From assembly GCA_001783275.1 (NCBI GenBank), contig MFRH01000004.1, positions 6,265-41,423 of the forward strand: a DNA stretch of 35,159 nt, given 5' to 3'. A program made the translations under genes and the position numbers. How positions within the stretch are numbered: the first letter of the stretch is position 1; the number at the start of each line of letters is the position of its first letter. Shown in pieces: positions 9,004 to 15,431 of this stretch. Below the pieces are notes generated by a model. That model was given only the letters and a program-made list of their open reading frames with translations. It was not told where the DNA came from and did not search any database. This DNA is from Candidatus Margulisbacteria bacterium GWF2_35_9 (lineage in GTDB: Bacteria; Margulisbacteria; Riflemargulisbacteria; GWF2-35-9).

Positions 9004-9900
9004 ATGGAAAAAACGAATCAAAAACTATATCAGAAACTAACCTATAAGGTTGGGGACTTATTACCATTACCCACTACAGTTTCAGAACTTATTAAATTAG
9101 CAAACAACCCAAATGTTACCTCTCGGGATATAGGGAAAATAATTGAACGAGACCAAGCTATGGCTTCAAAAATACTTCGTTTGGCAAATTCAGCTTCTTA
9201 TGGGTTTTCACAGCGAATTCGAACAATCTCTCATGCTATTGTGTGTCTTGGTTTCAATAAAGTAAAAAGTCTCGCTTTAACAGTTTCAACATTAAAAATG
9301 TTAAGTGACTCTCTTGCTAAATACAATTTAGACGCTGGAGCACTTTATAAACATAGTTTGGCCGTAGCAGTTGCAGCAAATATCATTGCAGAAAAAACAA
9401 AAGCGAAAGACCCAGAAGAAGTATATTTAATGGGGCTTTTACACGATATTGGTAAGCTGATAATTAATACACATACAACCAACGAGCTTGAGGATGTTTG
9501 GACTTATTACAAAACTCATAAAGATATTAAATTTTTCCAAGCTGAAAAAGCGGTGTTTGGGTTTGATCATGCCGACATCGGGGGAGAAGCAGCCAGAGGG
9601 TGGAATTTGCCAAACGAACTTTGCAATGCTATCGGGTATCATCATACCCCCCATAGTGCTCCAGGAGATAATCGTTGTGCGTTTATTATCCACTTAGCTG
9701 ATGGAATTGCAAAAACGATTGATATTGGGAAAGGATTGTCTTCTGATCAATCTATCGCTGTAGAGCTGGAGGGTACTTTCAAAGAACGAAATCTAGAGGT
9801 TATTAATCTAAAAAATGAAGATATTATGGGAATACGAGAACAAGTATCCATTAAGCTCCATGAGGTTATTGATGAACTTGATAATAATGAGGATTCTTAA
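9004..9900 (+). CDS. HDOD-domain signalling protein
   Basis: LPLPTTVSELIKLANNP, DQAMASKILRLANSASYGFSQRIRTISHAIVCLGFNKVKSLAL, YLMGLLHDIGKLI; TAATG overlap with next gene. Confidence 0.93.
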   Translation: MEKTNQKLYQKLTYKVGDLLPLPTTVSELIKLANNPNVTSRDIGKIIERDQAMASKILRLANSASYGFSQRIRTISHAIVCLGFNKVKSLALTVSTLKMLSDSLAKYNLDAGALYKHSLAVAVAANIIAEKTKAKDPEEVYLMGLLHDIGKLIINTHTTNELEDVWTYYKTHKDIKFFQAEKAVFGFDHADIGGEAARGWNLPNELCNAIGYHHTPHSAPGDNRCAFIIHLADGIAKTIDIGKGLSSDQSIAVELEGTFKERNLEVINLKNEDIMGIREQVSIKLHEVIDELDNNEDS

Positions 9901-12257
9901 TGTTAAAATCTAGCCTAATAAGCCATGATCACCAACAAAGCAGCCCTCTTCTTAAATCTTTTAAGACATATACTGATCTTGAAGGAGCCTCTCCTGATAA
10001 TCTTGTAAAAATCATTTTTGAGCTTCTGGCAAAAGCCGATGATCTTAAAGCTAATGAGGAAGACATCGAAAATAGTTATTTCTTACAAAATGCAATCAGC
10101 GCTATTTTGCAAATTTCCTTAGGGGATCAAGACCTTGAAAACAAGCTTAAACAATCCCTTGAAATGATTATATCTACTCCATGGTTTGATCTGCTGTTAC
10201 GAGGCGGTGTATTTCTTCTGGATAAAGGAACCGATGACTGGGGTTTATCTATAAACTACAATCTCGGACTCGAAGATATTGATAAGAAGGTACACGCATT
10301 TACAAAATCTAATTCATGGCTAAGCACTGTGGACTCCTGCCAGATTAGTCACTTTAATTACAAAGAATCCGATTTTGATATTTTAAAGACTCCTGGCTTA
10401 GAATGCGGGCATTATTTAATACCTCTTATTTCCAACAATCAATCTATCGGAATGATTCTTCTTTTCTCTGTAAAAGACCATATATTCAGCAACGAAGCCG
10501 AAGACTTTTTCGCCATAATATCAAATATATTATCCGGCACAATTGAACGGGACATGACCCAGCAAATTCTGACAAATTATCGAGATCATCTTGAAGATCT
10601 TGTTAAAAAAAGAACTGATGAGCTTATGATACTCAATACAAATCTTGTTGAAGCTGTAAAAAATGCAGAGCAGGCAAATAAATTGAAGGGTGATTTTCTA
10701 GCCAATATGTCTCATGAAATCCGAACTCCGATCAATGGAATCCTTGGGATGACTACTCTTTTTAAGCGTGATAATCTAACTTCAGAGCAGATTGATCAAC
10801 TTGAAATTATTAAAATTTCTACAAATTCTTTATTAAATCTTGTTAATGACATTTTAGATTTCTCTAAAATTGAAGCCGGTCTGCTTGAACTTGAATCAAT
10901 CCCTTTTAATATTAAAAATTTATTATCTGATAAATTAAAGATGTTTAAGCCAATGCTAAATGATAAAGACATTAATCTTTTCTCCTTTGTTTCTGATGAT
11001 GTTCCAGAATATGTAAAAGGCGATCCTGCACGTATCCAGCAAATCATCATTAACCTGATTTCAAATGCCATCAAGTTTACCCATGAAGGCGGGATAGAGG
11101 TCAACTGTACCGTTAAAAAAGACCTCCAAAAACATCTTCTCCTTCAGTTTGAGGTTAAAGACTCTGGGATTGGTATTCCTAAAGGGAAGACTGGCATCAT
11201 TTTTGACAGTTTCCGTCAGGCAGACGGGTCTCACACCCGAAAATATGGTGGTACTGGTCTTGGTCTTTCTATTTGCAAACAGCTTGTTGGATTAATGCAT
11301 GGGAAAATATGGGTTAAAAGCAAGGTGGATGTCGGCAGTTCCTTCTTTTTTAATATCAAACTCGATAAACTGACTGATGCAGAGCTGACAGCACAAAAAA
11401 TAGACGACGTTTCAAAAACCATTAATATTGAAGATTTCAAAACACTTAAAGTTTTATTAGCAGAAGATTTTGCTATTAATCAAAAGGTCTTTAAAGGAAT
11501 GCTCGAAATGTTTGGGCACCAAACTGTTATAGCAAACGATGGAGTGGAGGCTCTTTCCCTATATCAAAATGAAAATTTTGACCTTGTATTTATGGATATC
11601 CAAATGCCAAATATGGATGGAGTAGAATCCACAATTAGAATTCGAGAATATGAAAATAAATCCGGAAAACGAACTCCGATTATTGCTCTTACTGCTCATG
11701 CGATGAAAGGTGATCGTGAAAAATATATTAGCAAGGGAATGGACGATTATTTATCAAAACCTATTAATAGCGAAAATTTAGAAAAGCTATTATATAAATA
11801 TATGTCCAGTGCTAAAGGATTAGGAGTTGTTCAATTAAAGCAGCCCGTTGATAGTGGATCTATTGCTAAAACTGATGCCGTTATTTCTAGCATAAATATT
11901 GACTCATTGAACACTACCAATGCTCCCATCGACATGGCTCAGGCAATAAAAGAGTTTCGTGGTAATGCTGATTTAGTTTATGAATTACTGGCTGAATCCG
12001 TTGTTACTTTCCAGAATCAAGCAACCGAAATTGAGAAAGCATTAGAACGTTCTGACTTTGAGTTTATTCGAAGTAATGCTCATTCAATAAAGGGTGGAGC
12101 AGCAAACATGATTATTAATGATTTATCCGCTGCTGCAAAAAACCTTGAATTTGCTGCAAAAGAAGGTAATATAGAGAAGTGTGCGCTTTATACAAAAGAT
12201 TTACGTTTTGAGTCTGATCGCCTCGCAACCTATTTTCAGGAGGAAGTTAAAAAATGA
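9900..12257 (+). CDS. Hybrid sensor histidine kinase (GAF-like - HisKA - HATPase - REC - HPt)
   Basis: SHEIRTPINGILGM; NLISNAIKFTHEGGIEV; KDSGIGIP; YGGTGLGLSICKQL; receiver LLAEDFAINQ/VFMDIQMPNMDG/IALTAHAM/LSKPIN; HPt AHSIKGGAANM. N-terminal GAF-like assignment is tentative. Confidence 0.95.
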   Translation: MLKSSLISHDHQQSSPLLKSFKTYTDLEGASPDNLVKIIFELLAKADDLKANEEDIENSYFLQNAISAILQISLGDQDLENKLKQSLEMIISTPWFDLLLRGGVFLLDKGTDDWGLSINYNLGLEDIDKKVHAFTKSNSWLSTVDSCQISHFNYKESDFDILKTPGLECGHYLIPLISNNQSIGMILLFSVKDHIFSNEAEDFFAIISNILSGTIERDMTQQILTNYRDHLEDLVKKRTDELMILNTNLVEAVKNAEQANKLKGDFLANMSHEIRTPINGILGMTTLFKRDNLTSEQIDQLEIIKISTNSLLNLVNDILDFSKIEAGLLELESIPFNIKNLLSDKLKMFKPMLNDKDINLFSFVSDDVPEYVKGDPARIQQIIINLISNAIKFTHEGGIEVNCTVKKDLQKHLLLQFEVKDSGIGIPKGKTGIIFDSFRQADGSHTRKYGGTGLGLSICKQLVGLMHGKIWVKSKVDVGSSFFFNIKLDKLTDAELTAQKIDDVSKTINIEDFKTLKVLLAEDFAINQKVFKGMLEMFGHQTVIANDGVEALSLYQNENFDLVFMDIQMPNMDGVESTIRIREYENKSGKRTPIIALTAHAMKGDREKYISKGMDDYLSKPINSENLEKLLYKYMSSAKGLGVVQLKQPVDSGSIAKTDAVISSINIDSLNTTNAPIDMAQAIKEFRGNADLVYELLAESVVTFQNQATEIEKALERSDFEFIRSNAHSIKGGAANMIINDLSAAAKNLEFAAKEGNIEKCALYTKDLRFESDRLATYFQEEVKK

Positions 12258-12655
12258 GCATTATAATTATTGATGATGAGTTAATCAGCAGAAAAAAGCT
12301 GAGTGAGATTTTAAAGCCATATGGAGAATGTATTGAGTTTGACCGTGGTGATTCCGCATTGGTTGCTATTGAAAAAATGATAAAAAGCAAACAGCAGATT
12401 GATCTTATTACAGTTGATATCTCAATGCCCTACTTAAACGGTCTTGCTGTATTAAAGAAAATTCGAACCCTAGAGGTTGATAATAATGTCTTAGAAGTAA
12501 ATCAATCTAAAATAATTATGGTCACATCTAGCGTTAATCGCGATAATGTTATGGAAGCGTTATCTCAAGGTTGTAATGATTATATTCTTAAACCGTTCAA
12601 TGAAGAAGCAATTATTGCTCGGCTTAAAAAACAAAATATAATTGTTAGTGAATAA
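12254..12655 (+). CDS. Stand-alone CheY-like receiver, paralog 1
   Basis: IIIIDDELISRKKLSEIL, TVDISMPYLNG, MVTSS, LKPF; ATGA overlap with the kinase stop. Confidence 0.93.
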   Translation: MSIIIIDDELISRKKLSEILKPYGECIEFDRGDSALVAIEKMIKSKQQIDLITVDISMPYLNGLAVLKKIRTLEVDNNVLEVNQSKIIMVTSSVNRDNVMEALSQGCNDYILKPFNEEAIIARLKKQNIIVSE

Positions 12656-12670
12656 AACAGGAGATTACTT

Positions 12671-13063
12671 GTGAACATAATGATAGTGGATGATGAACTA
12701 ATCAGTCGTAAGAAGTTGAGTATTATATTACAAGCTTATGGAAAGTGCTTTGAATTTTCTGATGGGGCCAGCGCCCTTGAGTTTTACAAAAATGCCGTAA
12801 AAGAAAATACCCAGATCGGATTAATCACCTTAGATATTGATATGCCAAAACTTACTGGGATTGAAACGCTCGGATTGATAAGAGATCTTCAGAAAGCCCA
12901 GAATGTACCTGCAAGTAACCGACCTAAAGTATTCATGGTAACATCCATGAACGATCAAAAAAACCTAATGAATTCTCTCACGCAAGGTTGTAGTGACTAT
13001 ATCGTTAAGCCCTTTGATGAAGAAAAAATTATAGATAAACTACATAATCATTTGCTCATTTAA
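12671..13063 (+). CDS. Stand-alone CheY-like receiver, paralog 2 (GTG start)
   Basis: MIVDDELISRKKLSIIL, TLDIDMPKLTG, MVTSM, VKPF; RBS acaggaga before GTG. Confidence 0.93.
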   Translation: MNIMIVDDELISRKKLSIILQAYGKCFEFSDGASALEFYKNAVKENTQIGLITLDIDMPKLTGIETLGLIRDLQKAQNVPASNRPKVFMVTSMNDQKNLMNSLTQGCSDYIVKPFDEEKIIDKLHNHLLI

Positions 13064-13076
13064 GGAAAAAAGATTT

Positions 13077-13472
13077 ATGGATATTATAATTGTTGATGAT
13101 GAACTAGTTGCCAGAAAAAAACTGACAGAAATTTTAAAACAATTCGGTGATTGTCATGAATTTCCTGAAGGAAACAGCGCAATTACTTACTTTGGTAATA
13201 TGTTGCGCGATAAAAAGAAAATCGGTCTTATTACGTTAGACATCTCCATGCCAAGCGCTAGCGGTATTACAGTTCTCCATCGACTACGCGTTCTTGAACG
13301 AATTTCTGGGATTATTCCCACTCAACAAACTCCCATCTTAATGGTCACTGCCAATACAGACAAATCAAAGGTAAATAAGGCGTTGTCCCTAGGCTGTACC
13401 GATTATATTTTAAAACCTTTTGATGAAGTTACTATTCTTGCCCGTCTAAAAAAACATAATATAATACACTGA
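13077..13472 (+). CDS. Stand-alone CheY-like receiver, paralog 3
   Basis: IIVDDELVARKKLTEIL, TLDISMPSASG, MVTANT, LKPF. Confidence 0.93.
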   Translation: MDIIIVDDELVARKKLTEILKQFGDCHEFPEGNSAITYFGNMLRDKKKIGLITLDISMPSASGITVLHRLRVLERISGIIPTQQTPILMVTANTDKSKVNKALSLGCTDYILKPFDEVTILARLKKHNIIH

Positions 13473-13477
13473 GAACA

Positions 13478-13882
13478 ATGACAAAAAAAATAAACGCACT
13501 AATAATTGATGATGATGTAGTTAGCTGTAAAAAGTTATCTGAAATACTTGAACCCTATGCCACTTGCAGTGTGTTTTATGAAGGCAAAAAAGCAATTGAA
13601 GCTTATGACAGTATCATCCGTAAGGGCGATAAAATTGATTTAATTACTTTAGATATTGCTATGCCATTGTTTGATGGCATTGATACGCTAAAAGAATTAC
13701 GGTCCATTGAAAGCAACTATCATATTAATAAAGATGATTCTGCAATAATTATCATGATTACCAGTAGCTTTGATAAACACAAGATTACAGAGTCCTTTGA
13801 AAAAGGTTGCAACGATTATATTATTAAACCCTTCGACGAAAAGAAACTATTGGCTCGATTAAAAAGTAATAATCTTTTGTAG
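13478..13882 (+). CDS. Stand-alone CheY-like receiver, paralog 4
   Basis: LIIDDDVVSCKKLSEIL, TLDIAMPLFDG, MITSSF, IKPF. Confidence 0.93.
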   Translation: MTKKINALIIDDDVVSCKKLSEILEPYATCSVFYEGKKAIEAYDSIIRKGDKIDLITLDIAMPLFDGIDTLKELRSIESNYHINKDDSAIIIMITSSFDKHKITESFEKGCNDYIIKPFDEKKLLARLKSNNLL

Positions 13883-13926
13883 AACTGTCCGGCATTATTA
13901 AGTAACTAATTGCATAATTTCACTGA

Positions 13927-13946
13927 ATTGGTTAATATTAACTAAT
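13927..13946. promoter_or_regulatory. Dyad ATTGGTTAATATTAACTAAT upstream of the fifth receiver (possible operator)
   Basis: 20-bp inverted repeat with a single mismatched pair and a perfect 12-bp GTTAATATTAAC core, in the 117-bp gap before 14000. Confidence 0.4.
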
Positions 13947-13999
13947 AACGACCATTAAAGTTATTTTTAAAGAAACTAATCACATAAAAGAGGTTATAA

Positions 14000-14392
14000 A
14001 TGAATATACTGATTGTAGAGGACGAAGTTATCAGCAGTAAGAAACTTTCAGAAATACTGTCGTCTTATGGGGATATCAAAGTATTTTATGATGGCAAAAG
14101 CGCAATCTCCTACTACAAAAAAAGCCTTAAAGAAAATATCCCAATTCAGCTAATTACACTTGATATTGCTATGCCAGAGTTTGATGGCATTGAAACCCTA
14201 ATTGAATTAAGAGCCTTTGAAAAAGAGTTAGGATTAAAACAGGACGATTGTTCAAAAATAATCATGGTTACCAGCAGTTTCAATAAAGAGAAAATTACAG
14301 AATGTTTTGCTCAAGGCTGTAATGATTATATTATAAAACCTTTCGATGAGGGGAAAATACTATCTCGTTTAAAGAATAATCGCTTACTCTAA
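14000..14392 (+). CDS. Stand-alone CheY-like receiver, paralog 5
   Basis: ILIVEDEVISSKKLSEIL, TLDIAMPEFDG, MVTSSF, IKPF; closest to paralog 4; RBS agaggt. Confidence 0.93.
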   Translation: MNILIVEDEVISSKKLSEILSSYGDIKVFYDGKSAISYYKKSLKENIPIQLITLDIAMPEFDGIETLIELRAFEKELGLKQDDCSKIIMVTSSFNKEKITECFAQGCNDYIIKPFDEGKILSRLKNNRLL

Positions 14393-14402
14393 TTTTATCT
14401 AA

Positions 14403-15044
14403 TTACTTCGTTGACGCCATCTTTACTTTTTCAACCAAATCTTTACCAATTGTAGCTAAAATTTTATTCCATATTTCCGGCATTTCCATCTCCATTTTTT
14501 TAACCAAAGAATGTGTCCATTGCATATATTGAAGATCTTCTTGTGCAACAACCGTTGCAGAAGCAGCTTCGCCAGTTAATAAACTCATTTCAGCTACAAA
14601 ATTTCCTCGATTAAGAATTGCAACTTCTTTAAAGTTCTTTCTAACACTTGCCTTTCCCCCAGTAATGAACATTAAATTATTTAGTTTCTCTCCTCTGGTA
14701 ATAATAGCTTTCCCATTTTTAGGCTCTTGTTTGTCGCCTAATTTCCAAAAATACAGAAATTCCTTTCTGGTCATGATAGGAAAATGTGCTTGGTATACTG
14801 CTAAAATATCTTCTTCCATTTTAATGGGTTTTCTATCCTTAATAATACCAATAACCTTGTAAATATTCAGAATAACAAAAACTGAGTTCCAAAATGTAAC
14901 AATATAATTTCCAATGAGAATCGAGTATCCAATCATAATGAATTGAGCAGAAGTTAGCATGCATCTAAGAAATAGGATATCTTTGACCGTCAGGGCTATA
15001 AACATCAGCAAATAGCCAATATTTAGCAGTATATATACAGACAC
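14403..15044 (-). CDS. Popeye-like membrane protein: three N-terminal hydrophobic helices + cyclic-nucleotide-binding-like domain
   Basis: GTG start. FWNSVFVILNIYKVIGIIKDRKPIKMEEDILAVYQAHF after the hydrophobic region; CNBD-like NFVAEMSLLTGEAASATVVAQEDLQYMQW; C-terminal IGKDLVEKV. These match my recollection of the vertebrate POPDC layout and motifs. Confidence 0.75.
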   Translation of the reverse strand: MSVYILLNIGYLLMFIALTVKDILFLRCMLTSAQFIMIGYSILIGNYIVTFWNSVFVILNIYKVIGIIKDRKPIKMEEDILAVYQAHFPIMTRKEFLYFWKLGDKQEPKNGKAIITRGEKLNNLMFITGGKASVRKNFKEVAILNRGNFVAEMSLLTGEAASATVVAQEDLQYMQWTHSLVKKMEMEMPEIWNKILATIGKDLVEKVKMASTK

Positions 15045-15047
15045 TTT

Positions 15048-15431
15048 TTAATCCTTTAAGCTATCGATTGCGAGTGATTCATCCTTAAAGTTAGCCACAA
15101 TATCTAAAAGACTTGTAATTTTAAAAATTCTTAAAATATTATTGTTTGTATTACTGATAAGCAGTTTACCGCTTCTCTTTTTTACATTGATCGCACATGT
15201 AAACAACCCTTGAAGGCCTGAAGAATCGACAAAAGAGATATTTTTAAGGTTGATTATTATTTTATTTTTACCTTTTTCTAACTCACGATCAATCTCATCG
15301 ACTAAAATTTTATTATTGCCGATATCAATCGTCACACCTTCTTCTGAAGAGCGATCTTCATCCAACTTTTCAGGAGTAAAAATGACGATATCATTAACCA
15401 CTTTTTTATTTATTTTCATAATACAGTACAT
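15048..15431 (-). CDS. STAS-domain protein (anti-sigma factor antagonist-like)
   Basis: IIINLKNISFVDSSGLQGLFTCAINVKKRSGKLLISN: conserved DSSGL phosphosite; stop is 3 nt before the GTG of the Popeye-like gene. Start may be internal ATG 15419. Confidence 0.85.
   Translation of the reverse strand: MYCIMKINKKVVNDIVIFTPEKLDEDRSSEEGVTIDIGNNKILVDEIDRELEKGKNKIIINLKNISFVDSSGLQGLFTCAINVKKRSGKLLISNTNNNILRIFKITSLLDIVANFKDESLAIDSLKD

Follow-up and report, generated by a model that had tools for sequence, protein, structure and literature searches.

The window, a 35,159-nt stretch of DNA from Candidatus Margulisbacteria bacterium GWF2_35_9, contains on its reverse strand an ORF for a small membrane protein with a cyclic nucleotide-binding domain (CNBD) and the features of Popeye (POPDC) proteins, together with an adjacent gene for a STAS-domain protein (Table 1). 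A Shine-Dalgarno-like stretch (AAGGA) lies a few bases 5' of the GTG start codon of the 213-aa ORF. All sequence stretches that the initial annotation had quoted from this protein, namely FWNSVF...RKPIKMEE, NFVAEMSLLTGEAASATVVA, and IGKD, are present in the ORF (WNSVF at W52-F56 and RKPIKMEE at R71-E78), and its three hydrophobic helices are recovered in agreement by hydropathy and by the structural model (helices 3-19, 23-44, and 47-71).

Table 1. Positions in the window of the POPDC-like gene, the features of its product, and the adjacent STAS gene
Feature	Position	Strand	Basis or remark
POPDC-like membrane CNBD protein	14403..15044	-	213 aa, GTG start; PF04831 and PF00027 above cut-off
Three transmembrane helices, residues 3-71, including LFLRCMLT and FWNSVF...NI	14832..15038	-	model helices, hydropathy
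POPDC-type linker RKPIKMEE, residues 71-78, start of linker helix	14811..14834	-	aligns with KRPVKIEK of POPDC1 (provisional sequence)
Phosphate-binding-cassette-like stretch NFVAEMSLLTGEAASATVVA, residues 148-167	14544..14603	-	alignment with six local canonical CNBDs
IGKD motif, residues 199-202, within long C-terminal helix 189-212	14439..14450	-	aligned with POPDC1 and relative; model helix
STAS-domain (anti-sigma-factor-antagonist type) protein, DSSG motif	15048..15431	-	PF01740 52.4 bits

The STAS gene is co-oriented with the POPDC-like gene and located 3 nt upstream of it, and the two genes are probably co-transcribed. When compared with the TIGR00377 model, the STAS protein obtained 51.0 bits (cut-off 53.45). 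This gene pair converges with a set of plus-strand genes for a hybrid histidine kinase followed by five response regulator-like proteins that stand alone; the Pfam searches covered the kinase and two of these five proteins. The kinase (9900-12257) has a C-terminal Hpt domain, and the five consecutive receiver proteins behind it (12254-14392, plus strand, approximately 130 aa each) represent a tandem receiver expansion. Further neighbours include genes for a PurU-like formyltransferase, lpxC, and lpxD-like, OmpH-like, and BamA-like genes. The GC content of the POPDC-like gene (0.33) and its GC3 (0.29) match those of the neighbouring genes, and, given these values and its bacterial neighbours, the gene is truly bacterial.

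Analysis of the protein by hmmscan revealed matches above cut-off to both PF04831 (POPDC1-3; 37.2 bits, E = 3.9e-9, cut-off 28.1) and PF00027 (cNMP_binding; 42.2 bits, cut-off 27.5). The profile search that had been proposed for telling a Popeye protein from an ordinary CNBD protein thus returned both families. Residues 7-90 align to positions 13-94 of PF04831, and residues 1-106 alone, which comprise the three membrane helices and the linker (TM+linker), obtained 35.7 bits (E = 1.2e-8), so that the resemblance to Popeye proteins claimed in the initial annotation is beyond chance. A relative was identified in a different genus of the family (L003:502-1152 in genome G002), which is 42% identical to the window protein over its length and also exceeds both cut-offs (50.5 bits for PF04831 and 52.6 bits for PF00027); its TM+linker fragment alone obtained 36.3 bits against PF04831. 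This relative is located close to an end of its 109-kb contig, and the genes around it, a lon-type protease gene among them, look bacterial.

Matches to PF04831 were observed in two of the 74 genomes of the phylum and in two of the five genomes of the family, and none was found in 14 control genomes. Searching the genomes of the phylum with a TM+linker profile gave no convincing copy beyond the window protein and the G002 relative. Likewise, neither a few strict patterns applied to 85k genomes and viral contigs nor tblastn searches of plasmid and phage sequences detected full-length relatives beyond these two. The plasmid matches obtained by tblastn are partial and lie over the CNBD, and two of them, inspected as candidate relatives, proved not to be POPDC-like. 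No bacterial POPDC was found in the literature searched, and Pfam/InterPro listings may already include bacterial members. All comparisons reported here involve these two bacterial POPDC-like sequences.

For comparison with the animal family, we used a provisional animal POPDC1 sequence that stems from no database entry and in which single residues could be wrong; it was accepted as a POPDC because it obtains 155.9 bits against PF04831 (17.1 bits against PF00027, below the cut-off of 27.5). BLASTP aligned approximately 199 residues of the window protein (E = 5e-11) and of the G002 relative (E = 5e-14) to the provisional POPDC1, and in both cases the alignment is collinear and includes IGKD. 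We also carried out shuffle tests with 2000 shuffles that preserve the hydropathy pattern. The TM+linker part of the window protein scored 89 against the provisional POPDC1 and the best shuffle 71 (z = 7.6), and no shuffle reached the score of the same part of the relative (z = 8.0). The z values for the C-helices were 3.4 (window protein) and 12.1 (relative), and those for the CNBD were weak (2.9 and 1.8, respectively). Since the values are high in the TM+linker part and low in the CNBD, the homology signal resides in the frame around the CNBD. In a tree built from the CNBD together with the C-terminal helices, a small sample of 15 rows in which the provisional POPDC1 forms a very long branch, the two bacterial POPDC-like proteins and POPDC1 are separated from 12 local CNBDs with 99/98 support. 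Features in common with POPDC1-3 include three membrane helices, a CNBD fold (cytoplasmic in these proteins and, judging by the placement of charges, probably also in the window protein), the WNSVF..N stretch, the R-P-[IV]-K-[MI]-E linker, and P...IGKD in the C-helix. Unlike POPDC1-3, the bacterial protein lacks the glycosylated N-terminus of 20-40 residues and has almost no variable C-terminal tail, and its CNBD passes the ordinary cNMP-binding model.

The AlphaFold2 model of the window protein, built from 14 sequences, has a pLDDT of 85 and a pTM of 0.58; 12 of these sequences are local CNBDs, and with the two POPDC-like sequences only, the pLDDT was 67. Besides the membrane helices, the N-terminal part of the model consists of a linker helix (77-87) and a helix at 93-102, with the RKPIKMEE region as the block of lowest confidence (pLDDT 56). 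The C-terminal part comprises a beta-roll, a cassette helix (152-157), a helix at 178-187, and the long C-helix (189-212). When the PDB was searched with Foldseek, the model matched CNBDs and CNBD-bearing proteins best (top match 3gyd, E = 5e-10), in keeping with the CNBD-like fold that had been suggested. A sequence search of the PDB with the TM+linker fragment or the provisional POPDC1 as query found no relevant solved relative. In BFVD, 74 columns of a phage protein of 86 aa (A0A8S5M7C6), whose entry bears the name 'Popeye protein conserved region', could be superposed on the model (rmsd 1.5, E = 0.18); this likeness could be a three-helix coincidence.

Crp/PKA-type CNBDs (PF00027) share with the bacterial POPDC-like protein the beta-roll, the cassette Glu, and the hinge and lid helices, but the latter has Ala in place of the cassette Arg, the residue that binds the cyclic phosphate in canonical domains, carries a membrane domain, and has no DNA-binding or kinase part. 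As had been noted from the sequence, the Glu is kept (E152) and the canonical Arg position is occupied by Ala (A161); the alignment revealed Ala at this position in the G002 relative as well (cassette segments FVAEMSL...ASATV in the window protein and FIGEMSY...ATADV in the relative). The DSPE and FQVT motifs, which animal POPDCs use to bind cAMP and which are required for this binding (PMC6562197, PMC4080823), are absent from the cassettes of both bacterial proteins. Thus, the initial reading of the protein as Popeye-like holds for the membrane and linker part, whereas the cassette is not that of a full Popeye domain. The provisional POPDC1 likewise lacks an Arg at the corresponding position, so Arg loss is common to the animal and bacterial proteins, whether by descent or not. 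With Ala at the Arg position, ligand binding by the window protein must be non-canonical, weak, directed to another ligand, or absent.

The cassette Arg is present in six CNBD proteins from bacteria of the same family and absent from six small CNBD proteins encoded in six genomes of this order (L004, L005, L006, L011, L014, and L017). The latter have a GEMSL cassette and share the lack of Arg with the POPDC-like protein, but they are soluble proteins with reading frames of 143-146 aa and possess neither a membrane domain nor IGKD; they are possibly receptors for another ligand. Another frame (L007:1063-2355) encodes a multi-pass membrane protein of 431 aa that on visual inspection resembles a transporter and contains an inserted CNBD with the canonical Arg.

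On balance, we favour with moderate confidence the explanation that the window protein is a bacterial relative of animal POPDCs with a non-Popeye cassette, acting as a membrane-anchored, ligand-dependent switch on a partner. The three membrane helices, preceded by a very short outside N-terminus, would anchor the linker helix, the CNBD beta-roll, and the long lid/C-helix in the cytoplasm. A ligand entering the beta-roll would reposition the lid/C-helix and the linker, and this movement would in turn switch partner binding or membrane recruitment of the partner. The output would be a partner switch instead of an enzymatic, DNA-binding, or pore activity. In animals, the interaction of POPDC1 with TREK-1 is cAMP-dependent, which is a proposed mode of action of POPDC1 (PMC4918794). 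The genome contains two class III cyclase (PF00211) genes, both on other contigs, whose products read as CHASE2-type cyclases with adenylate-type Lys/Asp substrate-contact residues. With two such adenylate cyclase-like genes, cAMP is probably made in this organism and would be the most plausible ligand.

A variant of this explanation, in which the CNBD serves as a fixed docking domain and either has no free ligand or binds something other than a nucleotide, is possible but appears to us less than probable. It would fit the Ala at the cassette Arg position in both copies and the six Arg-less soluble CNBDs of the order, which imply that a different chemistry may be in use throughout the local group. 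However, the cassette Glu, the beta-roll, and the lid are retained, the provisional POPDC1 lacks the Arg too, and the cassette of animal POPDCs is diverged but binds cAMP (PMC6562197).

The two bacterial proteins also bear on the history of the family. Mutations in POPDC proteins, an established class of cAMP effectors, occur in heart arrhythmia and in limb-girdle muscular dystrophy. Published accounts report the family from animals and a single protist (PMC4918794), and reviews give CRP as the nearest bacterial relative; the present data point to an older and wider origin. We tentatively propose, as one possible history, that the membrane frame of Popeye proteins arose in bacteria: members of this lineage would have kept a form in which the POPDC anchor, linker, and C-helix surround an ordinary CNBD already devoid of the cassette Arg, and eukaryotes would have inherited or acquired this protein and then evolved the DSPE/FQVT cAMP site. 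If so, the bacterial form would be a living intermediate between CRP-type domains and a cAMP effector of heart and muscle. The reverse course, in which this bacterial lineage acquired a eukaryotic POPDC gene whose nucleotide-binding region was later replaced or remodelled, would account for the patchy occurrence in family and phylum, but it is unlikely: the CNBD is bacterial-like and passes PF00027, which the provisional animal sequence fails (17.1 bits), and GC and GC3 agree with the surrounding genes. As the two bacterial copies are only 42% identical, any transfer must be old. Beyond its value as a handle on the origin of the family, a compact bacterial version with the POPDC anchor offers a tractable protein for the structure of the frame and a way to study the role of the membrane and linker part separately from cAMP binding.

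We also considered whether the gene encodes a Pycsar-type (PycTM-like) anti-phage effector that opens pores once a cyclic pyrimidine such as cUMP or cCMP is made. PycTM and PycTIR are likewise bacterial CNBD effectors, the former sharing the membrane-plus-CNBD architecture (PMC11224242), and the CNBD of the window protein matched PADLOC PycTIR/TIR-effector models (E ~1e-11) as well as PycTIR in the PDB. However, the PADLOC matches all fall within the CNBD, no TIR domain is present, and the N-terminal membrane part matches POPDC. Moreover, no cyclase adjoins the window gene, whose neighbours encode the STAS protein, response regulators, and the PurU-like formyltransferase, and visual inspection of the first 12 kb of the contig that carries the G002 relative revealed none. 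Because of the missing adjacent cyclase and the restriction of the PADLOC matches to the CNBD, a Pycsar pore is highly unlikely. Membrane helices are often fused to CNBDs, and a generic membrane-anchored CNBD protein resembling POPDC by chance or convergence would agree with the weak CNBD-only similarity to the provisional POPDC1; nevertheless, this is exceedingly improbable given that the TM+linker part alone passes PF04831 in both proteins, that none of the 2000 hydropathy-preserving shuffles reached the score of either, and that the full-length alignment is collinear through IGKD.

Returning to the ligand-dependent switch, its partner may belong to a sigma factor partner-switching pathway, as suggested by the co-oriented STAS gene, and the STAS protein itself may be the acting partner, which we regard as a lead only. 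The pairing may be incidental, because no STAS gene was found beside the G002 relative, which has other neighbours, and STAS genes are numerous in the window genome (13 matches). The same genome contains HATPase_c_2 genes and five SpoIIE-type genes; together with the 13 STAS matches, these suggest that partner-switching regulation is probably extensive in this organism. With the window STAS protein as query, at least seven STAS-domain matches were detected in a run on one strand of a contig (G000 contig C51:5209-9540), forming an array of anti-anti-sigma-like genes.
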